Assembly: GCF_022846435.1 (NCBI RefSeq)
Contig: NZ_AP025627.1
Location: 2,886,001 to 2,950,000 of the forward strand
Direction of reading: 5' to 3'
DNA: 64,000 bases
From: Parageobacillus sp. KH3-4
GTDB lineage: Bacteria; Bacillota; Bacilli; Bacillales; Anoxybacillaceae
The notes beneath the pieces were generated by a model. It did not search any database, was not told the DNA's origin, and worked only from the letters and a program-made list of their open reading frames with translations. The translations under genes were made by a program, and so were the position numbers. Below are positions 11,336 through 34,073 of this stretch, one piece after another. Position 1 is the first letter of the stretch, and every line of letters begins with the position of its first letter.

Positions 11336-11783
11336 TACCAGCCAAGCCGTTGAATTATATTAACAAAGAAGATGTAAAATGCCATACTTTTGCGTGTTTT
11401 TGGCAATTAAAAAATGCATGAAATGGCAAATAAGAATATTCAATGATCTGTATAAAATTTCATACCTGTTGTCGCTTGACATGGAGCCTCTGCGGGCATG
11501 CTTTCTGGCAAAGGGGGCAAGCCACAGGACTTTGCAAGGCATATAAGCCTATCATACCCGCCACTCCATGTAAAGCGGTGAATATGCAATAAATTATGCA
11601 TATCCTTAATTGCCAAACACTACAATTCTTAATTGCCACTAACACTTTTTGCGGGCAAGTATAGTCTCCAAAATCCAAATAGTGAAACACCCCAGCAAAT
11701 GCTGGCGTTAGCGATGACGCATTACAAAAAATAAAGTGGAGATATTTTATCTCTCCAATTTTTATAAAGGATGGGAGTTAATC
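11336..11783. other. Intergenic stretch upstream of the Mrr-like gene
   Basis: About 450 bases. A minus-strand frame (11690-11460) encodes Cys-rich sequence (YTCPQ, CPLCQKACPQ) that may be a zinc-ribbon transposase fragment, but no start site or family match is convincing. Nothing else is supported. Confidence 0.4.
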
Positions 11784-12761
11784 ATGAATTGGTGGATGGT
11801 ACGTGCTGGAGATCGTAATGAGCTTATTCCTGTTTGGAAACAAAAAGGAGTTGCTTCGGTAGGATGGGCGGATTTTGGAAATCCAAAAAACTATCCAACT
11901 AGAGAAGCTTTGATTCAGAAATCCCACGAAATTTATGAAGAAGAGAAACCTGCTACGAGGATTATTTGGGCAAGCCAAGTGTGGAGATTTAGCCATGAAA
12001 TTAAAGCAGGAGATAGAATCATTACATATGCTAAAGATAAACGTGAATACTTGGTAGGGATCGTTACCAAAGAGCACGAATATAATGAAACAATTGTAGA
12101 TAAACATTATCCAAATGTAATCCATGTAAAATGGGAAAAGAAGCAAATTCCTCGTGACCAATTATCACAAGAAGCGAAAAATTCCCTTGGCTCTACGCTT
12201 ACGGTTTTTCGTGTAGACAATTGGGGAGATGAATTGGAAAGCCTATTAACTGGTAAAGAACAGACAACAAGTGAACCAGAAAATAGCGAAGAGGAAGTCA
12301 TCAAAAATGATTTTGTTCAAAAAGCATTGACCATGATTCAAGATAAAGTTGACAAATTAGACCCGTGGCAAATGCAAGAATTAGTCGCTGGATTGTTGCG
12401 AGCCATGGGATATAATGTGAAAGTCAGTAAAAAAGGTCCCGATAGAGGAGTCGACATTTTAGCTCATAAAGATGCATTTGGTTTCGAAAAACCGATTATT
12501 AAGGTACAGGTAAAACATCGCAAATCGTCTTCATCAGGCCCTGAGATTCAACAGCTGTTAGGAGCTCACCCAATTGATGCCAACAGTATATTTGTATCAA
12601 CTGGAGGATTTACAGCAGCTGCTGAAAATATAGGAAAGCAGCACAATGTCAAGCTCATTGATTTAGAAGAATTAGTAAAACTAATTGTCCAGTGGTACGA
12701 TAAAATGCCAAGCGAAACAAGATCGTTGTTGCCCCTACAAAAAATATATATTCCAGAATAA
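11784..12761 (+). CDS. Mrr-type restriction endonuclease with N-terminal PUA/EVE-like domain
   Basis: This 325-residue protein starts at the ATG at 11784, behind AAAGGATGGGAG (a GTG at 11736 is in frame but has no site). Residues 1-150 (MNWWMVRAGDRNEL, AGDRIITYAKDKREYLVGIV) resemble the EVE/PUA-like modules that read modified bases. Residues 185-310 are an Mrr catalytic domain: LDPWQMQELVAGLLRAMGY, the PD-(D/E)XK core GPDRGVDILAHKD (about 218) and IKVQVKHR (about 240), then SIFVSTGGFT. Such proteins cut methylated DNA without a partner methylase (type IV restriction). The gene is isolated, flanked by IS remnants, and ends in a clear terminator. The target modification is unknown. Confidence 0.85.
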   Translation: MNWWMVRAGDRNELIPVWKQKGVASVGWADFGNPKNYPTREALIQKSHEIYEEEKPATRIIWASQVWRFSHEIKAGDRIITYAKDKREYLVGIVTKEHEYNETIVDKHYPNVIHVKWEKKQIPRDQLSQEAKNSLGSTLTVFRVDNWGDELESLLTGKEQTTSEPENSEEEVIKNDFVQKALTMIQDKVDKLDPWQMQELVAGLLRAMGYNVKVSKKGPDRGVDILAHKDAFGFEKPIIKVQVKHRKSSSSGPEIQQLLGAHPIDANSIFVSTGGFTAAAENIGKQHNVKLIDLEELVKLIVQWYDKMPSETRSLLPLQKIYIPE

Positions 12762-19524: not shown

Positions 19525-19598
19525 TGATTCCGACTGGGCTCGAACCAGCGACCTCCACCCTGTCAAGGTAGGGGTATTTCCAGCTGAGCTGCGGAATC
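19525..19598 (-). repeat. tRNA-Val-like attachment-site copy (att, degenerate 5' half)
   Basis: Bases 19525-19569 repeat exactly the 3' 45 bases of the intact tRNA-Val gene at 34001-34045 (anticodon loop, T-arm, acceptor 3' strand). The 5' half retains GATTCCG-AGCTCAGCTGG but has lost the D-stem partner and the 5' anticodon stem and is one base longer, so it is not a functional tRNA. This is the distal attachment site of the integrated element. Confidence 0.85.
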
Positions 19599-19661
19599 AT
19601 GCTATATATACCGCTATTTTTATTGAAAATTACCGTGACTTTCATCTTATTTTCTAATAGC

Positions 19662-19681
19662 TTGTGACCAATTTGTGACCA
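19662..19681 (+). promoter_or_regulatory. Putative integrase arm-type sites, left end
   Basis: TTGTGACCA occurs twice (19662-19670 and 19673-19681), starting 93 bases inside the left att core. The same motif pair occurs just inside the right core. See the right-end entry. Confidence 0.5.
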
Positions 19682-19896
19682 AAAAAACTAAACTCTTGAG
19701 CCTGTGGATGAAGGTTTCCTTTAATTGTATGCTTCAATTTTTAAATCAAAAAGACAGGGAGCTTGTACGTTACTCTCTGTCTTTGGTTTATAATTTGTCT
19801 ATCCCGAAAATAAAGAAGATTTATCTTCATACTACGTTGTGTAAAGAATTTTTCATGGATGTCTCTGTTAAATTTCAATGTTGTTTTAGGCCACAG

Positions 19897-19926
19897 AAAA
19901 AAGACCGAAATTAGTCGGTCTTTTTT
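19897..19926. terminator. Perfect bidirectional terminator
   Basis: AAAAAAGACCGA (19897-19908) and TCGGTCTTTTTT (19915-19926) form a 12-bp stem with T-runs in both directions. Confidence 0.85.
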
Positions 19927-19932
19927 GTATGT

Positions 19933-19967
19933 CTTGTTCAACTATCGCCAACCGTTAGTTGAACAAG
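19933..19967. repeat. Palindrome CTTGTTCAACTA/TAGTTGAACAAG
   Basis: A perfect 12-bp inverted repeat with an 11-base centre. It shares CCGTTAGTTGAA with the palindrome at 14265-14320. Confidence 0.65.
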
Positions 19968-19977
19968 TTCATAATTA

Positions 19978-20200
19978 AATTAACTTCTTCACAAATAAAA
20001 CTCTATCTTGATTTGGTCCATCATAATCGTATATACAGAGATTCCGTTCATTTCTTTATCTCCGTTTTTTTCGATTTCAAATCCCATTTTTGTATGAAAT
20101 GCAATGGAAACTGTGTTCACTGGTGAAGTTACATAACGGACAATATTCCGACCATTCTTTTTAACAATATCAAAAAAATTCATTGTAAAGTTGTCTTCCA
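19978..20200 (-). pseudogene. GNAT acetyltransferase, C-terminal fragment
   Basis: The minus strand encodes [19 protein letters not shown] and, after loss of one base, [17 protein letters not shown]. This is the typical end of a GNAT acetyltransferase (KMGF motif, DYDGP...RVLF tail). The catalytic N-terminal half is absent. It is a decayed fragment inside the left end of the island. Confidence 0.7.
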
Positions 20201-20257
20201 ATACCAATCGAGACGTGGAAACTGTTACGACAACGCTTGTATGGAGTAATTTCATAG

Positions 20258-20500
20258 CCTAATCAAGAAAGAATGCATCTATCTGAATCGATTCCGTACG
20301 CGGAAAGAAGCAAAACAAGCGATTTTCGAATACATTGAATGCTTCTACAACCGTAAAAGAAGTCAATTCAGTCCTTGGCTATGTATCGTCATGTGAATTT
20401 GAAGCTGCATATTACGCTAACCAAAGAAAAGTAACTGCATAAATTCAGCTATTTCTCTCTGTTTAACGTGTCCGTTTTCTTGACATAACACCATTGTATT
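20258..20500 (+). pseudogene. IS3-family (IS150-like) transposase OrfB, C-terminal scrap
   Basis: Plus-strand frames encode NRFRTRKEAKQAIFEYIEC and, after a frameshift, SSCEFEAAYYANQRKVTA. These are the conserved end of IS3-type OrfB integrase proteins, followed by an IR-like end (TGTCCGTTTTCTTGACA) at 20469-20485. Everything upstream is lost. Confidence 0.8.
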
Positions 20501-20526
20501 TATTTTATTTATATATAATGAAAAGT

Positions 20527-20570
20527 AAAGAGAGATTATAGTAATACAATTACTATAATCTCTCTTTTTG
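20527..20570. terminator. Long hairpin terminator after the SIR2 gene
   Basis: A perfect 19-bp stem (20527-20545 with 20549-20567) with a 3-base loop, followed by T5 on the plus strand and T-rich sequence on the minus strand. It ends the leftward ParA-SIR2 transcript. Confidence 0.85.
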
Positions 20571-20596
20571 TCTCTAAACCTCGCCTCTATCGGATA

Positions 20597-21460
20597 TTAC
20601 GGTATCTTACGTTCTTCTCTCAAACCTAAAACTAAGTTCTTAAGTTCTTCAATGTTCTCTTGGAAATTATCGTGGCTCGGTCCATATTCTAGACACCTAA
20701 CATTATATGTATCCTCCCAATGTTTAATTATGTGCTTTGATACCCCCTCTTTTATAACAATGTAGTGAGGAGCTGCACTACTTGATGTGTTCCGTATTGA
20801 TTGTAACACTAGATTAATATCTGGATCATTTAAACTATATCCGAGAAATAGTACAGTGTGAGTTTGGAAAAGTGCCTTTAGTAAAGAATAAAACTCTGGG
20901 TACTTTTCTTGAGCTTCATAGTATTGTTTGGATGTAAATATTATTTCATCTGTATCATCAATTGACCCGTGCGCTTTAATAATCACATTTTCTGGAGATT
21001 TTATATTTGCAATAATTGATTTTGTTTTTTGATAATCATATATTACATAGTGCGGTTCGTTACAAAAATTATCATAAATTTTGTCGAAATTCGTTGTAAT
21101 CACAATTTTGCTATCTATTGCCTTAATTGCTTTATGCACAGGAGACGGCTTAAATCTCCCTCTTGAGAATTTATCCTTTAAATACTTACTAAATGCTCCT
21201 GAATCACATAAATCATAAATTGCTTGTAATGCTAGCAGATAATTTTCTTGATCTATCATTCTATTAATAAAATCCAAATCTTCTGGTCTTGCATTATTAA
21301 TAATCAAATTTTTTATGTTCTTCAGAAAATCTCCCCATGTTTCTGGAGATTTTCCTTCGTCATTTACAGCTGTAGCAGACACTCCTGAGCCCAAAAACAA
21401 TATTGCCCTTCTATATGCTATTTCTTCTATCAAATTTTCTGGCCAAACTATCTTACTCAT
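20597..21460 (-). CDS. SIR2-family protein (candidate NAD-hydrolysing defence effector)
   Basis: This protein is 287 residues from the ATG at 21460, which overlaps the ParA stop; a TTG at 21472 is also in frame. It has the SIR2-like set: ILFLGSGVS (about 20-28), VITTNFDKIYD (about 115-125), KAHGSIDD with the catalytic His (about 160), and VLFLGYSLNDPDI (about 205). The pattern fits the prokaryotic SIR2 branch used in anti-phage defence (Thoeris ThsA, DSR, SIR2-HerA), whose members deplete NAD+ upon infection. No other domain is fused, so sensing probably depends on the overlapping upstream ParA-like ATPase. This two-gene arrangement is not a system I can name. Confidence 0.85.
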   Translation of the reverse strand: MSKIVWPENLIEEIAYRRAILFLGSGVSATAVNDEGKSPETWGDFLKNIKNLIINNARPEDLDFINRMIDQENYLLALQAIYDLCDSGAFSKYLKDKFSRGRFKPSPVHKAIKAIDSKIVITTNFDKIYDNFCNEPHYVIYDYQKTKSIIANIKSPENVIIKAHGSIDDTDEIIFTSKQYYEAQEKYPEFYSLLKALFQTHTVLFLGYSLNDPDINLVLQSIRNTSSSAAPHYIVIKEGVSKHIIKHWEDTYNVRCLEYGPSHDNFQENIEELKNLVLGLREERKIP

Positions 21461-22526
21461 CTTTATCACCAATATTTGTTAAGAAGTTCACATCTTTATC
21501 ACCAATATTTCTTAAGAAATTCAAAGCTATTTTATGAATAAACTCTGTATATTCAACAACACTACTAGTTTGATTACCTCTTATACCACTTTTATAGTCT
21601 AGATTAAAGATCGGCATATTTGAGGTCTGAGAAAGCGGCACTATACTATATACATAAGGTATATCACCTAACTTAATATCCTCTTCGTTTATATGGCTAG
21701 GGATAAACTTTCCTAAATATCTTAAAATTGTACCGTGCATGTCTTTAATCACTTTTTCATAGGCTTGTACAGGTCTGACTTTACCTTTAAATTTCCTTTT
21801 CGAATACTGTTGAATAGAATATCCGATAAATCTGGTATACTTTTTAACGTCTGTGTTTATTAAGTATTTTTCACTAAAAGCCTCTAAATCAAAGCCGGGA
21901 TCACTCTTTTGTAAATTGTTTAATGCATCTGTGTATAACTCCATCCATCTAGTCATCCATGTACCAATATTTTCTATTCCTAATAAACTAAATATGTCAG
22001 ATCCCATTGGTGTAAAAAAGTAGTCTGTATTAAGAAGAATACTTCTATTCAACGCCCCCAAAGAAGGTCCCACATCAATAAATACATAATCATACTCTGA
22101 AACCCAAGGTTTTAATTGATTTAACCAATTTAACTTTCTTAACTCTCCCTTATCCTGTCCAAGAGTACCATTCCAACTACGACTCATTAGATCGTCTATA
22201 ATAGCAAGCTTAGGATGTCCAGGTATTAAATCAATTTTATAATGATTTTCTTCTTTTTTAACTGGAATACCGCAGTTTTCCAACCTAGGTTCGCCTTCAT
22301 CCATATTTTCAAAATAGTTAAAAATAGTCTTATGAATCGGTTTTTCACCATAGTATTCATCCCATTTATCTTCTGGTATTATTAACTGAGTTGAATTAGA
22401 TTGAGGATCTAAATCTATTAAAAGAACTTTTTTATTTAGTTTTATACTTAGGTAACTTGCCAAATTTACAACTGTTGTTGTTTTACCTACTCCACCTTTG
22501 TTATTAAAAAAAGTAATTACTTTCAT
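21453..22526 (-). CDS. ParA/MinD-family ATPase coupled to SIR2
   Basis: This protein is 357 residues from the ATG at 22526, behind GGGAG; a GTG 15 bases upstream is in frame. It has the deviant Walker A FFNNKGGVGKTTTVVNLA (about residues 6-23) with the signature lysine, LLIDLDPQSNST (A' motif) and YVFIDVGPSLGALN (Walker B). At 357 residues it is longer than partition ParA proteins (about 260). No ParB gene or parS-like repeats are nearby, and it overlaps a SIR2 gene. It is more likely a regulator or sensor of the SIR2 effector than a segregation protein. The last 22 residues contain a tandem repeat (FLRNIGDKDVN / FLTNIGDKDE) from a 33-bp duplication. Confidence 0.85.
   Translation of the reverse strand: MKVITFFNNKGGVGKTTTVVNLASYLSIKLNKKVLLIDLDPQSNSTQLIIPEDKWDEYYGEKPIHKTIFNYFENMDEGEPRLENCGIPVKKEENHYKIDLIPGHPKLAIIDDLMSRSWNGTLGQDKGELRKLNWLNQLKPWVSEYDYVFIDVGPSLGALNRSILLNTDYFFTPMGSDIFSLLGIENIGTWMTRWMELYTDALNNLQKSDPGFDLEAFSEKYLINTDVKKYTRFIGYSIQQYSKRKFKGKVRPVQAYEKVIKDMHGTILRYLGKFIPSHINEEDIKLGDIPYVYSIVPLSQTSNMPIFNLDYKSGIRGNQTSSVVEYTEFIHKIALNFLRNIGDKDVNFLTNIGDKDE
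21458..21523. repeat. 33-bp tandem duplication at the ParA/SIR2 junction
   Basis: Copies 21458-21490 and 21491-21523 differ at only two positions. The duplication lies in frame in the ParA C-terminus and covers the SIR2 translation-start region. Confidence 0.9.
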
Positions 22527-23096
22527 AATAGGCACTCCCACTATTTAAACATTTTTCCTTATTATAGAATTATATCATTTTTTAATTCCAATTTAAATCC
22601 TGTTCTCATGACTAAACTTTTCCTAAGCCTAATATTGCTCTTTCAACAATTCAACATCAGTTTGGGTAATAGGTATTACCTATTCAACGGCTTCCATGTT
22701 ACTAAAAGCCTTCCTCGAACCTATATAGAAAAATTATCCCTTGGTCACTAAACCAAAGGGGTAGTATTCACTTAACCTGTGGTTATAATTTGCGTTTTTG
22801 ACATACTGTCACATCTCAAATCTTACTGCTTTTTCATGAAACCAAGTATAAGTTCCTCGCAAAAACATTGGTCATATTTTGGTCACAAACCATCGAAAAC
22901 TAACGGAAACTGTAGAATATTTCACTACTTAATAATCACCTTAAAAGCTTGATATAAAGGCATTTTAGAACACTTTAGAAAACTATAAGAAAAAAGCGTT
23001 GGGATGAAAAACAGCAGGAATAGTATATTGTGTGAATGTACATGGATTCCTTGAAGTTGAAATTTGTGTTTGGATTTGATGTAGTAGGACGTTGAA
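22527..23096. other. Intergenic stretch upstream of parA-sir2
   Basis: About 570 bases between the ParA start and the end of the restriction gene. It contains an inverted copy of the TGGTCACAAA motif (22880-22889) like those near the att sites, and candidate A/T-rich promoter sequence. No gene is supported. Confidence 0.45.
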
Positions 23097-23136
23097 ATAA
23101 AAAAGAGAGACTTGCATTGGTTTGCTAGTCTCTTTT
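23097..23136 (-). terminator. Terminator of the restriction-endonuclease gene
   Basis: AAAAGAGAGACT (23101-23112) pairs with AGTCTCTTTT (23127-23136). The minus strand continues with a T-run directly after the stop at 23137. Confidence 0.8.
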
Positions 23137-23760
23137 CTATATCCATTTCTTTATTGAACGCTTTGACATTCCATCTTTTCCTTTAGGGATTATTTCCACT
23201 GAGCTATCAAAAGCGTCAGCATTAAAGCCGATGAAGACAAAAGCTTTTCCTTCTGCATTTTCAAAGTATGGCTCCAATTCTTCGTAGTTTGTAACACGGT
23301 CAGTCAAATAGTAGGCCAATTCAAAAACTGGCATAAGAATTATTGCCATGTCTAATTCTTTACGGTTCAAACCTAACAATAGTTTTTGCATTGAACGGTG
23401 AGCAGACGAAATATTTCCTGTTTCAAATTCAAGTCCGACACGTCTTACTGTATCACCATCTCGAAATTCTTTGTAGACATCAATTGGACCGCCTTTTTTC
23501 TTTTCGTATTTTAAAACATCAAGCGGTTTCTCCCTAAACCAGTTGTATGTTTCTTCAAGCATTATATAGCAATTTTCTTTCAACGGTACTACACCGTTGA
23601 CATTTTTTTCGCTGTTATTTATAGTGAAGATATTTGAACCTTTTGGCCAAACAGACGAACTAATAGAGGTAATGACCTCATCATACGCCTGTTTACATAG
23701 TTTGTCGCTGGTTATCAACTGTTTGGCAATGTCTGTCATATAGACTTTATCAACCTTCAT
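23137..23760 (-). CDS. Type II restriction endonuclease, BglII/BstYI-like
   Basis: This protein is 207 residues from the ATG at 23760 (a GTG at 23772 lies close behind AAGGAGAGGG and may be used). The core GPIDVYKEFRDG then VGLEFETGN (acidic residues about 91, 108 and 110) followed by ISSAHRSMQKL resembles the BamHI/BglII class active site, where Asp, Glu-x-Glu replace the usual D-ExK. It lies directly downstream of an XRE controller and is divergent from a DNA methyltransferase, the classic C-R/M layout. The recognition site is not readable. If truly BglII/BstYI-like, a GATC-containing site is plausible. Confidence 0.75.
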   Translation of the reverse strand: MKVDKVYMTDIAKQLITSDKLCKQAYDEVITSISSSVWPKGSNIFTINNSEKNVNGVVPLKENCYIMLEETYNWFREKPLDVLKYEKKKGGPIDVYKEFRDGDTVRRVGLEFETGNISSAHRSMQKLLLGLNRKELDMAIILMPVFELAYYLTDRVTNYEELEPYFENAEGKAFVFIGFNADAFDSSVEIIPKGKDGMSKRSIKKWI

Positions 23761-23780
23761 GAAGAATAACACCCCTCTCC

Positions 23781-24032
23781 TTATGTTTCGTGGTCATCTT
23801 TGGGTTCGATGGAAGAAAAATCGAACAAATCCTTTGGGGTAACATTGAGGGCATGGGCTATCCTTTCGATGTTTTCCAAGGATACATTCCGTGTCCCACG
23901 CTCAATATCAGAAATGTAGGTTCTATGTAACCCACAACGGAAAGCTAATTCTTCCTGTGAAATCCCCATTGAAATCCTGATTTTGCGAACGTTTTTTCCG
24001 AACAAAATTCTGATATTATTTGACAAAGACAC
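23781..24032 (-). CDS. Restriction-modification controller (C) protein, XRE HTH
   Basis: This protein is 83 residues from a GTG at 24032 behind AAAGGCG; a TTG at 24047 is in frame. Nearly the whole protein is one XRE helix-turn-helix domain: VRKIRISMGISQEELAFR (helices 1-2), LHRTYISDIERGTRNVS (recognition helix with the SDIERG motif), NIERIAHALNVTP. Size and sequence are those of C proteins (C.BamHI, C.PvuII types), which activate their own operon and R gene and limit M expression. The R gene follows 20 bases later. The symmetric operator is seen at 24081-24110. Confidence 0.88.
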   Translation of the reverse strand: MSLSNNIRILFGKNVRKIRISMGISQEELAFRCGLHRTYISDIERGTRNVSLENIERIAHALNVTPKDLFDFSSIEPKDDHET

Positions 24033-24080
24033 ATCAACGCCTTTCAATTGACACTACTTCACTCGAATGATAGAATTTTC

Positions 24081-24110
24081 GTAGACAATGAGTCTACAGA
24101 CTATAAGTTA
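24081..24110. promoter_or_regulatory. C-box operator between the C and M genes
   Basis: GTAGAC (24081-24086) and GTCTAC (24092-24097) form a palindrome, immediately followed by AGACTATAAGT, a second half-site set resembling the PvuII-type C-box (ACT-x-ATAGTC). Its position in the divergent promoter region supports controller binding. Confidence 0.65.
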
Positions 24111-24125
24111 CATGGAGTGAAATAA

Positions 24126-25370
24126 ATGCGTTTCTTTAGTGTTTTTGATTTGGTTGTTCATCACGCAAGGCTCAGAGGGCATTCCGAAACGCAAATGTAT
24201 TCGTTTTTCCGAAAACATGGCATAAAAAAATCGGACTTACTTTGTACAAAAGATACTGGAATGATTCCTACTGATGAGCGTTTGCTTGGTGCAATTCTTA
24301 ATTATCTCGATATGTCCAAATTAGAACTTGAATTAGCTTTGGGAAGAATACCCTCTGGGTATGAACAGGCTTATTTACAAAATGTGAAGGAAATTGCAAA
24401 GTTACTTGAAAGCAGCAAACCGTCCACAAATAATGATTCCGTTCCACCAACTGTTCAACCTTATTTTTCAACAGAATATGGAAAATTATTTAAAGGGGAC
24501 TGCTTAAAGTTATTCAAGATGGTTCCAGATGAAAGTGTAGACTGTATTTTTGCAGACCCGCCTTTTAACCTCGACAAAGAATATGATGACGGAGTGGATG
24601 ACAGTAAATCCTACAGCACATACATTAGTTGGTGCTTTGCGTGGCTTGACGAATGTGTAAGAGTTTTAAAGCCAGGTGGTTCACTATTCATTTACAACAT
24701 CCCAAAGTGGCACACATATCTGTCCAACTACTTAAATAACAAGTTGAATTTTTGGGCTTGGATAGCCGTTGACATGAAATTCAACCTACCAATCCCGAAC
24801 CGACTTTACCCTGCACATTACAGCCTTCTCTATTATGTAAAGGGAAATAAGCCAAAGACTTTCAATCCTCAACGGATACCATTACAAACATGCCGTCATT
24901 GTGGTGGGGAAATTAAGGATTATGGCGGATACAAAAATAAGATGAATCCAAACGGAGTAAACATATCTGACGTTTGGACAGACATTTATCCAGTTAGACA
25001 TAGAAATTCTAAGAACAGGAAGTACAACGAATTACCTGTTAAACTGCTAGACCGTGTAATAACCATGAGTACCAACGAGAATGACGTTGTTCTTGACCCT
25101 TTTGGGGGTAGCGGTACAACATTCGCTGTTAGTGAATTGTTAAAACGAAGATGGATTGGATTTGAAATAGGTAATTGTGAAGTCATAAAGGAAAGGCTTA
25201 AAAATAAGGAAAAAGACATTGAATTGCTGAACAGAGTGTACGAGGAAAAGAATAAGCTGTTTCCCGACAAAGTAAAGGAATTACGAAGACGGAATGGTTT
25301 TTGGTTGGCAGAAGACTTTATGGAAAAAGAAGAACCAACCGAACCCGAACAAATATCACTCACGTTGTAA
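24126..25370 (+). CDS. Type II DNA methyltransferase, beta-class (DPPF motif, probably N6-adenine)
   Basis: This 414-residue protein has an N-terminal region of about 100 residues without motifs. Catalytic motif IV FADPPFNLD follows (about residues 142-150), then VRVLKPGGSLFIYNIP, a target-recognition region with a CRHCGGE half zinc-ribbon, ELPVKLLDRVI, and the SAM motif VLDPFGGSGTT (about 322-332). Catalysis before SAM binding is the beta order. DPPF favours N6-adenine methylation (N4-cytosine enzymes usually have SPPY/F). The ATG has a GGAG site. The gene is divergent from the C and R genes and should protect host DNA from the adjacent endonuclease. Confidence 0.9.
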   Translation: MRFFSVFDLVVHHARLRGHSETQMYSFFRKHGIKKSDLLCTKDTGMIPTDERLLGAILNYLDMSKLELELALGRIPSGYEQAYLQNVKEIAKLLESSKPSTNNDSVPPTVQPYFSTEYGKLFKGDCLKLFKMVPDESVDCIFADPPFNLDKEYDDGVDDSKSYSTYISWCFAWLDECVRVLKPGGSLFIYNIPKWHTYLSNYLNNKLNFWAWIAVDMKFNLPIPNRLYPAHYSLLYYVKGNKPKTFNPQRIPLQTCRHCGGEIKDYGGYKNKMNPNGVNISDVWTDIYPVRHRNSKNRKYNELPVKLLDRVITMSTNENDVVLDPFGGSGTTFAVSELLKRRWIGFEIGNCEVIKERLKNKEKDIELLNRVYEEKNKLFPDKVKELRRRNGFWLAEDFMEKEEPTEPEQISLTL

Positions 25371-25376
25371 TACCAG

Positions 25377-25406
25377 AACCTCTCGGTGATAATCCGTGAG
25401 GTTTTT
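25377..25406 (+). terminator. Terminator of the methyltransferase gene
   Basis: AACCTC (25377-25382) with GAGGTT (25398-25403), an inner CGG/CCG pairing, then T-run. Confidence 0.75.
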
Positions 25407-25574
25407 GCTCTTCCGTTCATCCATAATGAAGGAAGAAACACGCTTGAAGTTCATACGTTTTTACATAAATTTTCCGCTATACATTTAACTTTAGAATTGA
25501 CATTTCTCTTTATTAAAATCAAAATTTTATTAAATCCCTTGTACTGAAAAACAATTAAACAATTTAAGCACATA

Positions 25575-25612
25575 AAACAAGGTAGCTAAATTAAACAGCT
25601 ACCTTGTTTTAT
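25575..25612. terminator. Hairpin terminator
   Basis: AACAAGGTAGCT (25576-25587) pairs perfectly with AGCTACCTTGTT (25597-25608), with A/T tracts on both sides. It separates the RM locus from a decayed small gene. Confidence 0.8.
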
Positions 25613-25626
25613 AGATATTTCAGATA

Positions 25627-25986
25627 TTAATTTGTTGGTCTTAATTCATTCCACTTATTTTTTATTAATGCTCGGTGAGATTTGACCCATGGTATAAATT
25701 TTTTCTAACCACGATGGGATACTTCCAGATAGTCGCTCTAAATTGTCAATAGAATAACTCCCACTATAGTCTGTCATTTCTAGGTGAAAATGAGGGATAT
25801 TATTACCTTTTATTTGGTTTTATAACTATTTTTATCCTATTTTGCGATCTTGCTACTGTTTATATCATAGTCCCAGGAGGTGCATTCTTTGTTGCTTGAA
25901 TTGCTGCTTCAATATTAAATACTACTTAATAATTTTTTTATTTCATTCTCGTTAAACTCCAACTCATAAACATCAGCTCTTTTCAT
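25627..25986 (-). pseudogene. Decayed small gene, possibly DUF4160-like
   Basis: From an ATG at 25986 (behind GGAGAGA) the minus strand encodes MKRADVYELEFNENEIKKLL. Continuations in other frames are IEAAIQATKNAPPGTMI, TVARSQNRIKIVIKPNKR, NNIPHFHLEMTDYSGSYSI and, last, WNELRPTN. A frameshift near 25918, an in-frame stop near 25864 and two later frameshifts break about 118 codons. The PHFH segment and short length recall DUF4160 proteins, which often accompany DUF2442. That identity is tentative. DUF4160 function is unknown. Confidence 0.5.
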
Positions 25987-26198
25987 TATTATCTCTCCCT
26001 AATAAAAATGCCATGTTTGTATTAAATTTAAATCTCTGAGAATTATTAAAATCACATTAATTAGTTTTTTGAAAAACTTCTTTAGCGTTAGACTAATGTA
26101 AATGTAGAGCTGTTTATTACTATTACCTTTTTATAAAAAAGTGATAAGCTAACTCTCTGCTTTTCTGTCCAGCCACATAACCAGGTATCAATATAATC

Positions 26199-28490
26199 TT
26201 AGGTTAATTTTTTTAGGACTAGGTCTATGTCTTTATTCAACTTGCTTATATCAAATTCAATATAAGAGTACCAAATAATACGCTCTCTCAACTCATTAAA
26301 TTCCTTCACAATAATCTGTTTAAAATCACTTATAAACTTTTCTTGGTATATATTATTATTTTGTTCAGAATAAATTAAAACAACTAGGTAACTATGTGTA
26401 TTACGTGATATATATTCCTTAAATTTAAAAAGAATCCTTCTTATGTAATCCCGATAAGAATATTGCTTTCTTATTAACTTAATCTCAAAACATATATGAA
26501 GATTATTTGTCTTTTCTATACCCAAAAAATCAAATGGAATTTCGTTCCTTATAACCTCTATTTCCATTTTGCTCATATGCTGTCTTATAAAATAATAAGC
26601 AAGTTGTTCAATTATCATTCTCTCAACATAATTCAGAGCTTGTTGAGAATCGAGCATAAAGTCAGTTTCATCCTCATCAATTTCCTCTCCATGCGTAATC
26701 TTATTTTTTAACTTATTTAGACGATGGACTAAATTTCCGAACTGCCGAAGTTCTAAGATTTTAAACTTTTCTAGGTCTCTTATCATCATCATAAAGCCTG
26801 TACCTGTTCGATTATTTGCTTCTAATATTCCCAGTTGAATTAATTGATTGTAAATATTTCTAACCATCCTTTCTAACTTTACGAAATTATCTATGAAAAC
26901 CCATCTACCATCATCAGGCTTAATTCCTTCATCAACTATTACCTCAGCATCGTCTCTCCATTTGTAAAAGACTTTTATTTCCTCTTCTACCTCCTTATCT
27001 TCTTTTTCAAGAAGACCTCTCTCAACCAACTTGTCGAGTAGTTGTAATGCTAATTTATTCAAAAGTGTTAGATACCAACTAGAATGTACTTCTTTAGAGT
27101 ACTGCTCTAAATCACATATATCGTGTAAGGTGAATGAAACATATCTATTCATCTTAATTTTTTGAGTCCATATATGTAGTTGGGTTATTAGAAAATCTTT
27201 AATCCCGCTATCAAACTTTTCTTCTTTGATATTCTTAACTTCTATGTCTTTAATTACTTCTAAAAGTTGTGTATCAGTCTTAAGACCGTTTGCAATATCT
27301 TCATCAATGGTTATATAGCTAGTCTTATCTTCCCATGTTAGATTTTGACGTATAAGATTTATAAAACGCCTTGGCAACCTATTAGATTGTAGAATTATTG
27401 AGTTAATATAATCCTGTAATAAAGTATTAGAGAAATCGCTTTCTTTCACTAATATTTTTTTAAATAGTTCCTCAAACTGCTTAATTGACAATAATGGAAC
27501 ATGGATTGTTTTAGAAAAAACACTAGAGATAACTGCATCGTCAATAGTATGAGAAGCTTGATATTTATAATATAACTTCTGACCCGAGATTAGTATAAAG
27601 CTAGCTAATCCCGATAGCATTAGCGGCTTTAATTCGTTAATTAATGAATTTAGTTTCTCATCATCATCAATCTTATCTAGTTCATCAATAATAAATACTA
27701 ATTTCAGTCCAGAATGCTTTAGTCCATTAAGTATCTTCTTTAGCTGAAACTCTGCAATCTCATTGTCATATAGAGAACTGAGACTTAGCTCATTTAATTC
27801 TGTTTTCTTTTTACTATAACTTAATCCAAGCTTATAAGACTCAAATGCTGCCCAAATTGCAGAAACTATAAGAATGACCTTATCCAAGTGTGTATTATTT
27901 AAACCCAATATTTTTTCAACAAATTTAAACTCATTGTCTATCACCGCAGCAATTAAGAGACCGACAGATATTACTGATTTCTTTATATTATATGTAATTG
28001 TCTGGTTAATACTTTTTTCTGTTTGCAGACTATGCTTTCTACTTTCTGTGACTTGATAAAACGTTCTTTCATAAATCAATTCCAGTTCCCTTAGTAAACT
28101 AGGATTATCTTTCTCAAGTTGTTCCTTAACATTCTTCGACAAACTATTCGTCCCTCTATTTATAACAAGCTCCTTATTGTCAATTGCTAGGTATACTTCT
28201 CTTATTATCTTCCTAAGAATCAATGAGAACTCTTCATATTTTCCGAAGTTTAGGGAGACAAACAATATATTACTGTCTTTTTGTAGACACTTTTCTTTAA
28301 CCTTGTTAATGAATGAAGTCTTCCCAGCCCCCCTATATCCTGAAATTAAGAAACTAGCTGGATTTCCATTAACTATTTCTAGCACAATCTGTTCAAATAG
28401 TTCATCATCTTGAGAAACAAATATTTCATTCTTAGAACCCATCTCATAAGGGGAATCGCTTATGAGATGGTGTTTAAGGTATATTTTCAA
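26199..28490 (-). CDS. KAP-type P-loop NTPase with C-terminal nuclease-like domain
   Basis: This 763-residue protein starts at a TTG at 28490, 8 bases after AAGGAGG. Walker A is LISGYRGAGKTSF (about residues 48-60). Two hydrophobic helices (about 165-185 and 203-222) lie between it and Walker B LVFIIDELDKID (about 258-269). Membrane segments inserted inside the P-loop domain are the hallmark of KAP NTPases. A long helical middle follows. Near residues 650-680, IPFDFLGIEKTN then HICFEIKLIRK fits a PD-(D/E)XK active site (Asp...Glu-x-Lys). KAP proteins include phage-exclusion factors (PifA), so membrane-anchored, NTP-dependent DNA cleavage during infection is a reasonable hypothesis. No partner gene is adjacent. 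Confidence 0.75.
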   Translation of the reverse strand: MKIYLKHHLISDSPYEMGSKNEIFVSQDDELFEQIVLEIVNGNPASFLISGYRGAGKTSFINKVKEKCLQKDSNILFVSLNFGKYEEFSLILRKIIREVYLAIDNKELVINRGTNSLSKNVKEQLEKDNPSLLRELELIYERTFYQVTESRKHSLQTEKSINQTITYNIKKSVISVGLLIAAVIDNEFKFVEKILGLNNTHLDKVILIVSAIWAAFESYKLGLSYSKKKTELNELSLSSLYDNEIAEFQLKKILNGLKHSGLKLVFIIDELDKIDDDEKLNSLINELKPLMLSGLASFILISGQKLYYKYQASHTIDDAVISSVFSKTIHVPLLSIKQFEELFKKILVKESDFSNTLLQDYINSIILQSNRLPRRFINLIRQNLTWEDKTSYITIDEDIANGLKTDTQLLEVIKDIEVKNIKEEKFDSGIKDFLITQLHIWTQKIKMNRYVSFTLHDICDLEQYSKEVHSSWYLTLLNKLALQLLDKLVERGLLEKEDKEVEEEIKVFYKWRDDAEVIVDEGIKPDDGRWVFIDNFVKLERMVRNIYNQLIQLGILEANNRTGTGFMMMIRDLEKFKILELRQFGNLVHRLNKLKNKITHGEEIDEDETDFMLDSQQALNYVERMIIEQLAYYFIRQHMSKMEIEVIRNEIPFDFLGIEKTNNLHICFEIKLIRKQYSYRDYIRRILFKFKEYISRNTHSYLVVLIYSEQNNNIYQEKFISDFKQIIVKEFNELRERIIWYSYIEFDISKLNKDIDLVLKKLT
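28439..28470. promoter_or_regulatory. Perfect hairpin inside the start region of the KAP gene
   Basis: CCATCTCATAA (28439-28449) and TTATGAGATGG (28460-28470) are perfect 11-bp complements with a 10-base loop. It spans codons 7-17 of the gene, close enough to the start codon to influence translation or attenuate transcription. Confidence 0.55.
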
Positions 28491-28892
28491 TTAACTTTCC
28501 TCCTTAATAACATTCTTTATAACCAAATGATAGAACATACAGAAATGCTTTTCAAACAATATTTTCCATTCAAAAATAATATTATTCTCTCTGACTAGTT
28601 TAAGTTGATACATATTGACATGATATTTACCATAATTAATCAAACAAAATCGAAGTTTTATTAAGCTGTATATAAGGTAGATGTCAATAACCTCATATAA
28701 ATTGAAAAGGGGGAGCCACTTAATGGACACCCCAAAACTAACTATATATACTCTTGTCTACTATAAAATACCTAAACCTAAACAATTGTCCCTTATATGT
28801 CACCAATTTAGACTCCTAGTATATCCAACCATTCTTCCCGAGGTTGCTTTTTCTCTTCAAATAAATCAGAAAGTAACTCCCCTTTGTTATTA

Positions 28893-29939
28893 CTAGCAGT
28901 TTTCTCCTTCTCTTTCGCTTGTTTTTCCCAATACTTTTATTTTTTTATATCTTTCCTCTGATAGAGTTGTTCTTTCATCAACCATTAATCTTGAATGTTG
29001 CCATTCCGCTTGTTGAATTTGATTCTTGGCATCTTCAATAACTTTACCATCTTTAAACCTACTCAAAATGAATCCCGTTGGATTTTTCAAACCTTTCTTT
29101 CCATCCATGGCAATATGAATCGCTTTAATTAAAACCTCTACTCCATGCTGCTCCTGAAATTGCTTTAGTATACTTAATGATTGGTCGTTTAGTTCTCCAT
29201 GATACTTAACAAAAACATCTCGAATTTGTTCATCAACTTCTAACATTAGTTCAGGTTTTTTAATGTAGATTTAAACTCTTTATCCTCATGAACTTCAGAG
29301 GAAACACTTTCTTTTCTAAAACCTTTTTTGATATTGATTTCTTTTGTATTATTTGCTATTGCTTCTGCAATAGCATCCTCAACATCCTGTGCATGCTGTG
29401 GTCTACTATAAATTTTCTTTCCCAATCACCAAAATATTACTATATAAAAAACCATGTTCTTCTAATGTCTTTGTGTGATTCTTAACAGTACGGTCTGAAA
29501 CGCCAGTATCTTTAACAATTGTCTCGATATTTGGAAAGCTTATTTTCCGATATTCTTTTCCTTGGTTAACTAATCCCATCAGATAAAGGAACTGCTTGAA
29601 GATATCAGTTTTCGTACTTTTCATCTTCGTACTCATAAATTTCAGTATTTCATCTGTATAAATCTGAACAAACGGCTCTTTTTCCGTTACTATCTCATTC
29701 ACCTTGATGTACAAGATATCAGAAGATTTGACATTACTGATGTCAAGATTGTTTTGAAAGTCAACTGCATCGTATACATCAATAACCTGTTGTTGTATTA
29801 AGTTAGTTAATGCTTGTTTAATTTTATGTGCTGCTGACCGTCCTAAATCACTAAACTCCAGTAGTTGCTTTATTGACACCATTGTGAACCCCGCACGGTT
29901 CTCTAAGGTTTTTAAGATACCGTATAGGTAAATTTCCAT
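28893..29939 (-). pseudogene. Replication-initiation-like protein, broken by two A-tract frameshifts
   Basis: Three frames join into one protein of about 345 residues. 29939-29412 has an N-terminal winged-helix region (LLEFSDLGRSAAHKIKQAL) and a second HTH (ETIVKDTGVSDRTVKNHTKT). The middle (IYSRPQHAQDVEDAIAEAI) lies in another frame, and the C-terminal part (VFVKYHGELNDQSLSILKQF ... NPTGFILSRFKDGK) starts near 29246. The breaks sit in short A runs (about 29415 and 29265). The organisation, two DNA-binding parts plus a DnaD/replication-protein-like tail, resembles initiators of plasmid-like or integrative elements. Family assignment is uncertain. Confidence 0.55.
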
Positions 29940-30239
29940 TGCATTGAATCATTCTTATAAGCTTCTTTGTTAAATTTTATAAACATAGATATAACGTACC
30001 TCTCTTTCTACAGTTTTTTCTGCCCCCCTTTGAGAAGTGGTTACGTTATTCTCGCACTCCATGTTCTTGATAAATGCCTGTTAGTTTACCTAGTTTAAAT
30101 TTCTTTTTTATCGTCATTCTTCCTTAAGTAAGAGACCAGCCAGAAACGAAGTGCCTGTTTCTTATTATGTTGTTTCTTTCTTATTGTTCTGTTTTTATGT
30201 TATTAGTGGGCAAGAAATGGACGGAATTCCCCATTTTCA

Positions 30240-30301
30240 TTCCTAACACCTTAGGAACAATTGCTGCTTTTTTTGCTCATTTCATTCCCTACCATAGGGA
30301 A
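30240..30301. promoter_or_regulatory. Two adjacent short palindromes upstream of the replication-like gene
   Basis: TTCCTAACACCTTAGGAA (30240-30257) and TTCCCTACCATAGGGAA (30285-30301) share a TTCC-YTA...TAGGAA pattern, start 45 bases apart and lie 300-360 bases before the gene start. They are possible repressor sites. Confidence 0.45.
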
Positions 30302-30630
30302 AAAATTTGCTGATTTTTCGCTCCCCCCTTCCTAACGTATCAGCATGTACCTCCTTCTTAAATACATTTTACTAAATCGAGAATATGCCATTTTGAGATA
30401 GTTTCGTCATAAAAAAGCTAACGAATCTTGCAAAATCCCATGTCAAGAACTTTTTTTAAAAAATATTATATTTTTTGTTTTAAGGTGTAAGTTCGTATCG
30501 AATAAAGGCTTATTTTTGAAGATAATTTTACTTATTTCACTTTTGAAAAAATAATTAAATATTGCCTCGTATTCCGCATTGTAAACACTGGAGAATCACA
30601 CTTTTTCCTGTAAACAGAAGTGTTAGTTAT

Positions 30631-30735
30631 CCGTCTCGTATCGGGATTTTTTACACTGTAGCGTGTAGATTACGGTGCTATCTACCCTGTTTACTGCGAT
30701 AGGAGCTTAAAATGTGGAAATTAGTCCCATATCCG
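30631..30735. repeat. Diverged direct repeat, copy 1
   Basis: It begins CCGTCTCG, contains TTTTTTACACTGTAGCGTGT (also exact in copy 2 at 32261-32365), then a GTAGC...GCTA(T)C stem and a second partial hairpin whose loop holds AAAATGTGGAAA. The spacing of all blocks is the same in both copies. Confidence 0.75.
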
Positions 30736-30921
30736 TACTTTTTCAAAAAGAAAGTGAATAGACATGTAACTATTCTCTTGTAGCTATCGTAAACCCCGTT
30801 CAATTCATTTGTTAAACACATATTTGCCATATATATCAAGATATCCTCATAACTAGTGTAAATAATTATTCTCCTCCTACTTTCAATACGTATAAACGAC
30901 ATTGTAAACGCGCCTATCTAG

Positions 30922-30946
30922 CTGAGTTAGTAACTTACTAACTCAG
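30922..30946. repeat. 10-bp palindrome in the putative control region
   Basis: CTGAGTTAGT (30922-30931) and ACTAACTCAG (30937-30946) are perfect complements. A further TTAGTAAACT follows at 30951, giving an iterated TTAGTAA pattern. Confidence 0.55.
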
Positions 30947-31071
30947 TAAATTAGTAAACTGACATAATATTTAAAAATTTGTTCGCTGAGTTTAATTTTA
31001 ATAAATTGAGGATACATTAATTGCTAGCATGAAAACTAGTCAATATAGGAAAATGTAAAGGGAGTGTATTT

Positions 31072-32217
31072 ATGGAAAGTTTTGATGAAAGATACTTGAT
31101 TAGTTTAAATGAAGACCGAGGTAGCGAGAAGAATAAGCTCCGTTGGGAACAGGAAGCAGCCGAGAAAAACTTAATTTTCATTTGTCGGGATTTCCAAAAT
31201 GCCAATAATGCTTGGTATAGATATGAATGTGGTCATATTGGTATCATTAATAAAGCTGATGTTAGAAGGGGGAAGTATTGTTGCAGAAAATGCAAGTTTG
31301 TTAGTAAATACCAACGAGAATGCAAAGCAAAAGGATTGCTATATATTACGCATTATTGTGAGAATGAACAATCCTTAATAATCGCAGAATGTCTTGCATG
31401 TAATACGAAAAATACCTTTCGTGTTTCATCTATCACTCATCACAAAACTGTTGATTGTCCTACATGCAAACTAAAATCTTGGCAAGAGAAAGCATTCGCT
31501 TGTGGTTTTGAATTCCTAGAAAGGATTGATGGATATTGGGCTAACTATAAATGTTTATATTGTGGCTTAGAACAACCAAAACGATTTAGTGATGTGAGCA
31601 AGAACGAAGCAAGGTGTGAATGTGTAATAGAAGATAAAAATAAAAAGTTGTTAGAAATAATTAAAAGTGATGCAGAGAAGCGTGGATTTGAATTAGTGAA
31701 AAAAATTGATGGTAAATGGTGTTTATACAAATGTCAATTATGCGGGGAAGAAGATACATATCAATTTCAAGCAATGAGGATAGGAAATGCACGCTGTAGA
31801 ACAGCAACTTGTAATCCAAACAAGTCAAGAGCGCAACGATTAATCGAATACTTTCTCATAAATGATTTAGGATATAATAATAAATTACATTTGACGATTT
31901 AGTTGGATTAGGTGGAAATAAACTTAGATATGATATAGGTTACTACAAAAACAGAAAGTTGGAATGGTTGATTGAATATGATGGCAAGCAACACGAATCT
32001 CCCCAAAGGTTTAGAAGTCATATGTCAAGAAGCAAAGGACCAATTTAGAATTCAAAAAGAACATGACCGATTGAAAGATGAATATGCAAAAAAAACTGGG
32101 TATTCCGCTATTAAGAATATCCTACAGTGAATACGTCAAAAATATATGGAAAGAAAAAATCCTCCAGTTTTTGATGGATTGCTCATTTATGGGGCATCAA
32201 AATTCTTATTATAGTTG
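31072..32217 (+). pseudogene. Zinc-ribbon protein with Vsr/PD-(D/E)XK-like nuclease end, frameshifted
   Basis: The first 276 codons (ATG at 31072 behind GGGAG) encode four or more Cys-x2-Cys zinc-ribbon repeats (YECGHIG, CRKCKF, ECLACN, CPTCK, CLYCG, CQLCGEE). After a frameshift near 31900 the sequence reads KLRYDIGYYKNRKLEWLIEY and DGKQHES, then after another shift QEAKDQFRIQKEHDRLKDEY, and finally IPLLRISYSEYVKNIW. The DIGYY...IEYDGKQH core matches Vsr-like endonucleases, and this ribbon-plus-nuclease architecture is known from phages and mobile elements. At least three breaks make it non-functional as read. Confidence 0.75.
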
Positions 32218-32260
32218 AAGGTAGATTACCCCTTACATCTGACCCAAAATTACACAAAAT

Positions 32261-32365
32261 CCGTCTCGCATCGGACATTTTTTACACTGTAGCGTGTGAG
32301 TTAACGTGCTACCTCCTATTTTCATAACAAGAGGGCTGTAAAATGTGGAAAATAGCCCCCTCATA
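32261..32365. repeat. Diverged direct repeat, copy 2
   Basis: Second copy of the repeat at 30631-30735, same orientation, 1.63 kb apart. Here the hairpin around AAAATGTGGAAA is better formed: GAGGGCT (32331-32337) faces AGCCCCCTC (32353-32361). Confidence 0.75.
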
Positions 32366-32424
32366 CAATAAAAAGCAAAAAGGATGAGTTTCCCCATCCT
32401 GTGCAAATCCTGCAACTATCACTG

Positions 32425-32649
32425 TTATATATTTACCAACGGACTTGTATTAATCACCTCTTCAATAATCTTCACATCATCCAACGACTGCAAATAACGC
32501 TTTGTAATCTTCATGTCCAAGTAAGCGAAATAAACTTTAATTATACCTAGTTGAAACCGTTTTTGAACGAAGTAGTGACGTAGCGTATGTAGTCTAATTT
32601 TCTCCCTTCTCCCACTCTCACTCTTTCTCCAACAGACCTTACAATTCAT
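32425..32649 (-). pseudogene. Tyrosine recombinase, C-terminal remnant
   Basis: The minus strand encodes RLHTLRHYFVQKRF (the His-x-x-Arg box of tyrosine recombinases), then KITKRYLQSLDDVKIIEEV with the catalytic Tyr, and ends at a proper stop. The N-terminal three quarters are missing. It is a second, independent integrase relic on the strand opposite to the main one, so two mobile elements may have contributed to the island. Confidence 0.65.
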
Positions 32650-32765
32650 TCAATTAATTCAGAAGTTAAAAAACAACCTTTACCAGTGTCCACTCCAATT
32701 TATATGTTAAAATACCGTTAGGAAACCTTCCGCAGGCTTAAGAGCAACTTTAGGAGGCTCTTAAA

Positions 32766-33888
32766 ATGCGAGGAAGTGTAAAAAAAGACAAAAAAACAGG
32801 TAAGTATTATTTTGTAATCGATATTGGAAAAGACCCATTGACTGGAAAGCGTAAACAGAAAAAGAAAAGAGGCTTCAAGACTAAGAAAGAAGCGGAAAAA
32901 GCTCTAGCAGCTCTGTTAAACGAATTAAATGAGGGTACTTATATTGAACCTTCTAAATAACTGTATATTGACTATTTCAATGAATGGCTAATAAGCAAAG
33001 AACACCAGTTAAGCATTCAAACAATAAAAGCGTACAAGTCTTATCTAAAGACACATATCTCTCCAGCGTTAGGACATTTACAACTCAGCTCATTAACGCC
33101 CTTGCACATTCAAAAGTTCGTAGCAGGACTAAGAGACAAAGGATTATCAGAGACCACTGTAAAACGCATTTTTAATGTAGTGAATGCTTCGTTAAATAGT
33201 GCTGTTAAAATGGAACTACTTAAGAAGAATCCTGCTTCATCTATCGAAAAACCTAAATGGGATAGTAAAGAAATTACAATATGGAATCTACAACAAGTGA
33301 CTTCATTTCTTAAGGTTGCAAAATCCAGTCCTTACTATATAGCTTTCCTCCTTGCTATCATGACAGGAATGAGACAAGGAGAGATACTAGCACTGCGCTG
33401 GAAAGACATTGACTTTGAAAATGAATGCCTTTATGTAAGACAAACCCTTACACATGATGGAAAAGAATTTAAAGATGGAGCTAAAAGCAAGGCAGGCAAT
33501 CGCTCAATTGGTTTAGACACTTATACCATATCGATTCTTAAACAACAAAGAAAAAAAAGTTGTTGCAAATAAGCTCAAGTACGGGATTGACTACAATGAC
33601 TTTGACCTTGTTGTCTGCAGTTCTAAAGGTAAACCAATCAACCCAAGAAACTTACTAAGAACATTCAATAACTTGGTTACAAAAGCAAATCTACCTAAAA
33701 TCCGATTCCATGATTTAAGACATACACATGCAAGTTTAATGCTACAACAGGGTGAAAACATTAAATTAATATCGGAGCGGTTGGGTCACAGTAGTGTGAA
33801 AATTACGTTGGATATCTATTCACATGTTTTACCTAACATGCAAAAAGAAGCGTCTAACCGTCTTGCAAGTCAACTATTTAATAGCTAG
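32766..33888 (+). pseudogene. Tyrosine integrase of the island, broken by a nonsense codon and a frameshift
   Basis: The first frame starts at 32766 (MRGSVKKDKKTGKYYFVIDI, an arm-binding N-terminal domain) and stops at TAA 32958-32960. The same frame continues with an SAM-like core-binding domain (TPLHIQKFVAGLRDKGLSET) and the catalytic GMRQGEILALRWKDID. A one-base gain in an A8 run near 33553 shifts frame before FHDLRHTHASLMLQQG, LGHSSVKITLDIYSHV and the end at 33888. All catalytic residues (Arg, His-x-x-Arg, His, Tyr) are intact, so the protein was active until recently. It sits about 110 bases from the tRNA att core, as expected. Confidence 0.85.
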
Positions 33889-33898
33889 ACTACGGAAT

Positions 33899-33919
33899 CT
33901 GTGACCAAACTTGTGACCA
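33899..33919 (+). promoter_or_regulatory. Putative integrase arm-type sites, right end
   Basis: CTGTGACCA (33899-33907) and TTGTGACCA (33911-33919) match the pair at 19662-19681 in sequence, orientation and 11-12-base spacing, and end 82 bases before the att core. In the circular form the two pairs would flank the core, as arm sites of phage-type integrases do. Confidence 0.5.
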
Positions 33920-33950
33920 ATGAAGTGAGTAAAATTGTGTACATAAAACG

Positions 33951-33990
33951 AAAAAGCTTGAAACCCTTGATACGCAAGGATTTCAAGCCT
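33951..33990 (-). terminator. Terminator downstream of tRNA-Val supplied by the island
   Basis: GCTTGAAA...CCTTG (33956-33969) pairs with CAAGG..TTTCAAGC (33975-33988). The minus strand continues TTTTTCGTTTT. It replaces the original tRNA terminator now left at 19481-19516. Confidence 0.75.
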
Positions 33991-34000
33991 CACATTTTAG

Positions 34001-34073
34001 TGATTCCGACTGGGCTCGAACCAGCGACCTCCACCCTGTCAAGGTGGCGCTCTCCCAGCTGAGCTACGGAATC
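34001..34073 (-). tRNA. tRNA-Val (anticodon GAC)
   Basis: A 73-base cloverleaf: acceptor GATTCCG/CGGAATC, D-arm AGCTCAGCTGGGAGAGC, anticodon stem CCACC/GGTGG with loop TTGACAG (anticodon GAC, valine), T-loop GGTTCGAGCC, discriminator A. CCA is not encoded. It is the integration target of the adjacent island. Confidence 0.95.

Follow-up and report, generated by a model that had tools for sequence, protein, structure and literature searches.

A single gene of Parageobacillus sp. KH3-4 encodes a 763-residue protein in which, in the order computed here, a KAP-like P-loop nucleoside triphosphatase (NTPase) with two predicted membrane segments is followed by a HEPN-like helical domain and then by a C-terminal domain similar in profile to the Mrr-type PD-(D/E)XK nucleases. 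We favour, at a probability of about 55%, the reading that this is a single-gene, membrane-anchored and Tmn-like defence against phages or plasmids, with the tethered PD-(D/E)XK nuclease as its likely effector. The gene was studied within a 64,000-nt stretch of DNA (NZ_AP025627.1, positions 2,886,001-2,950,000, forward strand), which we call the window; coordinates throughout are those of the window, residue numbers are those of the window protein, and features are collected in Table 1.

The gene is the sole match to itself at E <= 0.001 within its own genome, a single 3.8-Mb contig, and five other full-length homologues make up, with the window protein, the six members on which our comparisons rest. 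One is encoded by the Priestia megaterium plasmid pFDU301C (L003, 36% identity), one by a contig labelled Pseudomonas sp. ISL-84 (L004, 33% identity), two by genomes of the window's order (G793 and G719) and one by a genome of its class (G952). The Pseudomonas label may be wrong, as homologues are otherwise found in Priestia and the window's class. The Priestia and L004 proteins begin at the same position in the alignment as the window protein does from its TTG codon. A reading made previously from the sequence alone had proposed a single open reading frame (ORF) of this length, joining a KAP-type P-loop domain that encloses two hydrophobic segments to a PD-(D/E)XK-like C-terminus. The ORF is borne out, on the minus strand with a TTG start and a ribosome-binding site upstream, as are the KAP NTPase and the D...ExK motif; the HEPN-like domain between them had been overlooked.

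The NTPase module is recognised in Pfam as AAA_16 (38.3 bits, cut-off 32.6, residues 33-277) and as KAP_NTPase (31.4 bits, cut-off 20, residues 42-374), the latter being matched at E <= 1 by five of the six members. Both Walker motifs are intact, and R371 and R374 are likewise invariant in all six. When a profile of the six members was compared with the PDB, ORC4 was found at 1.6e-6 and 8hr7, an entry named only 'Archaeal ATPase', at 0.001. We take 8hr7 to be RdrA, the ATPase of RADAR, in which case the two proteins share a weakly related AAA-type core; unlike RADAR, the window gave no adenosine-deaminase match at E <= 1 among the ten of its proteins that were scanned. The membrane segments were judged by 19-residue hydropathy stretches alone. 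Residues 173-191 (1.66) and 205-223 (1.57) are the two most hydrophobic stretches of the window protein, of borderline value for membrane helices, and both fall between Walker A and Walker B, where a hydrophobic pair is present in every member (lower score of the pair 1.35-1.99). A stretch following Walker B, residues 283-301, is nearly as hydrophobic in the window protein (1.49) and outscores the second segment in the Priestia and L004 proteins. Because of the borderline hydropathy and the similar scores of this stretch in several members, we regard insertion of the protein in the membrane as likely rather than established. An arrangement with two inserted segments is that of KAP NTPases according to the excerpts available of PMC11846954 and the title of the KAP paper cited there, and the Pfam match above cut-off together with the conserved hydrophobic pair supports the earlier assignment of the protein to a KAP-type NTPase with inserted hydrophobic segments, borderline as their hydropathy is.

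The C-terminal domain is probably, although not certainly, of the Mrr-like PD-(D/E)XK fold. Within the stretch FDFLG...HICFEIK (residues 653-671) the window protein carries D654, E669 and K671, and a complete D..ExK is found at the corresponding place in four of the six members, the window protein included. Such a motif is weak by itself: when the window protein was shuffled, 2.5% of the shuffled copies had a D...ExK-type pattern within their last 150 residues. In the C-terminal alignment, A5, the columns best conserved after that of D654 are those of F668 and E669 (5/6 each), and the similarity extends to whole profiles. Against an Mrr_cat profile built from 24 sequences collected in this analysis, the C-terminus of the six members scored 22.4 in hhalign compared with 8.8 +/- 1.7 for column-shuffled alignments, and that of the four members keeping D..ExK scored 21.1 compared with 9.5 +/- 1.6, none of 150 shuffles reaching the score in either case. 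In this comparison Asp654 lines up with the Asp of Mrr, Glu669 falls opposite the Q of the Mrr QxK, and the flanking helices are matched as well. When the family alignment was scanned in 19 windows, none wider than 170 columns, the three that cover the C-terminus (starting at 544, 584 and 617) scored 23.1-24.6 against Mrr and the other sixteen 10.7-15.1, while the reversed family alignment scored 9.5. As a positive control, NERD and Mrr, a true pair of restriction endonuclease families, gave a score of 21.3 with a probability of 8%. In a low-confidence structure model of residues 521-763 the elements run in the order helical bundle, three strands, helix, strand, helices, strand and helix, which fits a restriction endonuclease core.

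The assignment of the HEPN-like domain is tentative. Pfam HEPN_Swt1 matches the tail of the window protein at E 0.0017, under its cut-off, and a HepT-like family matches the Priestia tail at E 0.048; these sub-threshold hits are weak evidence, because the tails of other members match unrelated families equally weakly (for example TPR_Trm732_C, E 0.007 in G952). Collecting HEPN_Swt1 sequences for a profile gave matches in two of 120 genomes, none above cut-off. In the VIA structure comparison, eight of the 50 matches listed were limited to the helical half of the tail model (1wty, MtlR (6kcr), 7ae9, 7ae2, 7ae8, 2hsb, HepS (9oij) and 1o3u), and all are HEPN or MtlR-type proteins, with 7ae9, 7ae2 and 7ae8 being HEPN-toxin entries and 1wty and HepS being HEPN proteins; their Z scores of 6.0-7.7 lie in a range that chance helical bundles also attain. 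The Rx4H position reads RNRIVH in the Priestia protein, KNKITH in the window protein, which lacks the Arg and retains His600, and SNKIRH in G793, and is absent in the other three members. As such, the HEPN motif is complete in one of the six (Priestia), D..ExK in four, both in none and neither in one (G793); six sequences are too few for a mutual exclusion of the two motifs to be claimed. In the window protein we judge it most likely that the HEPN-like part is catalytically degenerate, perhaps serving in dimerisation.

The gene family is rare. Counting only full-length members, with the window's own genome included and partial matches dropped, and in samples that overlap, a member was carried by 1/299 and 3/397 genomes at the level of the order, 1/398 of the phylum, 2/398 of the class and 1/41 of the family, the 299-genome sample having been searched with one query sequence and the phylum sample with two, a narrower basis than in the later scans. 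A member was found in one of 72,556 plasmid records, that of Priestia, and in none of 50,697 phages; using the proteins of Priestia, L004, G719 and G952 as further plasmid queries led back to the same plasmid. Four peptide-pattern scans of viral contigs gave no member, a first such scan of genome contigs for close relatives gave none, and searches centred on G952 (14 genomes), G719 (43) and G793 (35) gave no additional full-length member. Partial matches, among them short P-loop ones, in G162, G364, G486, G559, G103, G249, G169, G119, G785, G884, G587 and G1183 were not counted, that in G162 looking on reading like a DnaB/DnaI replication locus; also set aside were L005, where the match spans only 26 residues, L006, a 589-aa ORF in which no D..ExK tail was seen by eye, and L008, with no ORF of at least 100 aa in the matching frame. 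Across the NTPase parts (residues 1-160 and 235-480) the members share a mean pairwise identity of 35-39%, compared with 17-18% in the two tail domains, as expected for a conserved switch bearing fast-evolving effectors.

Three of the six members, those of the window, G793 and G719, lie near known defence genes. The G793 gene adjoins a type I restriction subunit gene, with neighbouring S and M genes by reading, and a McrB-like gene lies 4.3 kb downstream; the P-loop region of its product matches mad8 (3.6e-5) and PDC-M16A (9.2e-5) in PADLOC, and the G719 and G952 proteins have no PADLOC match at E <= 0.01. Three ORFs precede the McrB-like gene (L021 12131-15031), all without a PADLOC match at E <= 0.01 and two of them, scanned with Pfam, without one at E <= 0.001. 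The G719 gene is preceded on the same strand by an ABC-3C-like pair (CTD10 and DUF2326/LmuB-like), with a GmrSD gene downstream (L022 5376-7883 and 11129-12802). Apparent housekeeping genes, by reading, surround the G952 gene, and a Panacea gene is found at a distance of 2.6 kb; transposase-like and IstB-like ORFs, also by reading, lie downstream of the L004 gene. One-gene phage exclusion would fit these gene contexts.

A number of results weigh against a defensive nuclease of this kind. The sequence-only reading had named loss of the Asp, Glu and Lys in homologues as the observation that would speak against a PD-(D/E)XK C-terminus, and this is in part what is seen: Priestia has T and N for the Glu and Lys and G793 has I for the Lys. 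The Asp is present in all six members only in the C-terminal alignment, because that of four rows is displaced by two columns in A4, the full-length alignment. The profile comparison with Mrr_cat exceeds its controls, but at low absolute probability, and searches return no nuclease. The hhalign probability was 2.4% in a first run against 11 Mrr sequences; with 24 it was 8.7% for the six members and 5.7% for the four, and in the alignment windows it was 11-19%. The alignment window starting at 651, which contains D654 and E669 without the preceding helix, scored 15.0, no higher than the windows outside the C-terminus. NERD was rejected as a relative of the C-terminus, as its score was reached by 11 of 150 shuffles, and by 25 of 150 when four members were used. 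No nuclease family, Mrr_cat included, is among the Pfam matches of the protein or of the tails, and PDB sequence searches with single sequences and with the profile gave no nuclease and no relative of either tail domain, only chance-level matches. The model of the tail is weak (two sequences; predicted local distance difference test (pLDDT) 61, predicted TM score 0.53), and a model of the full-length protein (pLDDT 46) was not used. The alpha/beta half of the tail model resembles many unrelated proteins. Foldseek against the PDB and viral structures gave no match to the tail at E <= 0.001, its top matches being unrelated or uncharacterised, and no restriction endonuclease stands out among the 50 matches listed by VIA, where BstEII (9ibq, Z 6.6, root-mean-square deviation (rmsd) 8.7) and 8z4i (titled Cdn1, Z 5.8, rmsd 5.9) sit among unrelated proteins. 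In PADLOC the window protein finds nothing better than a match at E 0.0096, and no adjoining defence system was recognised for the Priestia, L004 and G952 members.

It could be that the similarity to Mrr is coincidental and that the C-terminus is another alpha/beta fold, for example a ligand-sensing one, that regulates the KAP NTPase, as the silence of Pfam on nucleases, the many unrelated folds resembling the model and the missing catalytic residues in two of six members would allow. The window scan and its controls nevertheless favour Mrr, and the expected catalytic Asp and Glu are among the best-conserved columns, making coincidence very unlikely in our view. Alternatively, HEPN may be the effector, the protein then being a membrane-tethered HEPN RNase that acts by abortive infection, with the alpha/beta domain binding nucleic acid or persisting as a structural relic. 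Such a role would suit the Priestia protein, which retains the full Rx4H motif and has lost the Glu and Lys of the nuclease, and would agree with the below-cut-off matches of the window and Priestia tails to HEPN_Swt1 and HepT-like families and with the HEPN structure matches of the helical half. However, the window protein has Lys for Arg, the HEPN His is lost in three of six members and D..ExK is kept in four, and we consider this explanation improbable, if less so than coincidence.

We give a somewhat better, although still low, chance to the protein serving a mobile element, in plasmid or island maintenance, in replication control or in excluding competing elements, rather than in host phage defence. 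The Priestia homologue lies 918 bases past a replication gene on a mobilizable plasmid, with two small genes between. In the window, two small ORFs (177 and 117 aa; 28893-29939, minus strand) lie directly upstream of the NTPase gene, one of them matching HTH_36, and are perhaps the remains of a replication initiator; the surrounding island is bounded by tRNA repeats and contains a fragment of an integrase gene (33102-33572). Against this, BLASTP of the two ORFs with the Priestia replication protein gave no match at E <= 1, and no replication initiator was recognised beside the G793, G719, G952 and L004 homologues, which were inspected by eye with no full family scan. Single-gene defence through a tethered nuclease remains the reading that we prefer.

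The island that carries the gene in the window, 19525-34045, is bounded by the two copies of a tRNA-Val repeat and is low in GC (33%, compared with 40% and 45% in its flanks). It also holds a BamHI-type restriction system (23137-25370), comprising an endonuclease, a helix-turn-helix regulator and a divergent methyltransferase, and, at 20597-22541 on the minus strand, a SIR2-like gene that shares 20 bases with an overlapping ParA-like ATPase gene; the SIR2 part resembles ThsA and LmuA profiles, and the pair is possibly a second defence operon. A cysteine-rich 276-aa protein with repeated CxxC pairs, encoded at 31072-31902 on the plus strand, has no Pfam match at E <= 1. Outside the tRNA-bounded island, a gene for an Mrr_cat restriction endonuclease lies at 11736-12761 on the plus strand.

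Table 1. Position and basis of features of the NTPase gene, its predicted product and the ends of the island
Feature	Position	Strand	Basis
Complete gene with TTG start; product of 763 residues with KAP-like membrane NTPase, HEPN-like and PD-(D/E)XK-like parts	26199..28490	-	ORF; start of relatives
Ribosome-binding site AAGGAGG, just upstream of the gene	28499..28505	-	Printed sequence
KAP/AAA-type P-loop NTPase module, about residues 33-381	27348..28394	-	Pfam; six-member profile against PDB
Walker A GYRGAGKTS, residues 51-59	28314..28340	-	S50, G51, Y52, R53, G54, G56, K57 invariant in 6/6
Predicted membrane segment 1, residues 173-191	27918..27974	-	Hydropathy only; counterpart in 6/6
Predicted membrane segment 2, residues 205-223	27822..27878	-	Hydropathy only; counterpart in 6/6
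Walker B VFIIDELDKID, residues 265-275	27666..27698	-	D269, E270, D272, K273 in 6/6
HEPN-like helical domain, about residues 521-635	26586..26930	-	Sub-threshold HEPN_Swt1; model and structure matches
HEPN Rx4H position, K595-N-K-I-T-H600 (Lys replaces Arg)	26691..26708	-	Alignments
Probable PD-(D/E)XK (Mrr-like) domain, about residues 636-763	26202..26585	-	Mrr_cat profile comparison; secondary structure of model
Asp654, candidate catalytic Asp	26529..26531	-	Sole invariant column of 158, C-terminal alignment A5
Glu669-x-Lys671, candidate ExK	26478..26486	-	E in 5/6, K in 4/6
45-nt repeat in tRNA-Val, one island end	19525..19569	.	Identical to 34001-34045
45-nt repeat in tRNA-Val, other island end	34001..34045	.	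Identical to 19525-19569

Among described systems, the protein is most readily likened to Tmn, a single-gene phage defence of the KAP NTPase family with two unusual transmembrane domains and an unexplored mechanism in the available excerpts of PMC11846954. The window protein is likewise encoded by a single KAP NTPase gene with two predicted membrane segments, a likeness by description only, and differs in its HEPN-plus-nuclease tail, which those excerpts do not mention for Tmn. With SNIPE, described in excerpts of PMC13190303 as a GIY-YIG nuclease that is bound to the membrane and cleaves phage DNA at entry, it would share the logic of a membrane-held nuclease. However, SNIPE has DUF4041 and GIY-YIG, neither of which was matched in the window protein by a Pfam scan at E <= 1, and no KAP NTPase is mentioned for SNIPE in those excerpts. 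The C-terminal domain differs from the Mrr-type nucleases to which its profile is similar in being undetected by Pfam Mrr_cat and in its fusion to a membrane NTPase. Fusions of AAA with HEPN and of HEPN with restriction endonuclease domains, and HEPN families that lack the Arg and keep the His, are described in the portions available of PMC3710099, in which the term KAP is absent. The helical fold and the N-x-I-x-HG turn of the window domain resemble those of the HEPN superfamily (Swt1/Abi2 and HepT types), in contrast to its Rx4H position, where Lys replaces Arg. A KAP P-loop NTPase next to Orc/Cdc6 genes is mentioned in the part available of PMC10853773, and the word KAP does not occur in PMC12839542. 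We found no description of a KAP-HEPN-PD-(D/E)XK protein in the open literature in so far as it was available; since this scope includes neither the original KAP paper nor Gao et al. 2020, the lack of a description is not proof of absence.

In the scheme that follows we infer that the protein sits in the membrane, acts as a nuclease, oligomerises and serves in defence, and likewise what triggers it and what it targets. The KAP/AAA-type NTPase would be both sensor and switch, held in the inner membrane by the two helices between Walker A and Walker B, and would carry in the cytoplasm a tail of the degenerate HEPN-like domain followed by the Mrr-like nuclease as likely effector. A signal from an invader, perhaps its DNA on entry or a phage protein close to the membrane, would lead to NTP binding and oligomerisation, bringing the HEPN and nuclease domains together; the nuclease so assembled would then be licensed to cut DNA at the membrane. 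A further and more speculative suggestion, which we hold to be unlikely, is that the tail is a tandem of HEPN and Mrr-like effectors of which at most one is catalytically complete in any lineage, so that the same chassis could switch between RNA and DNA as target through alternative decay of the two domains.

If the preferred reading is correct, a KAP relative with a nuclease tail would provide the KAP class of defence with a concrete output that can be tested by mutation, and would join SNIPE as a second example of DNA cleavage coupled to the membrane. A two-effector tail that decays alternately, should it prove real, would bear on how such systems change their target.

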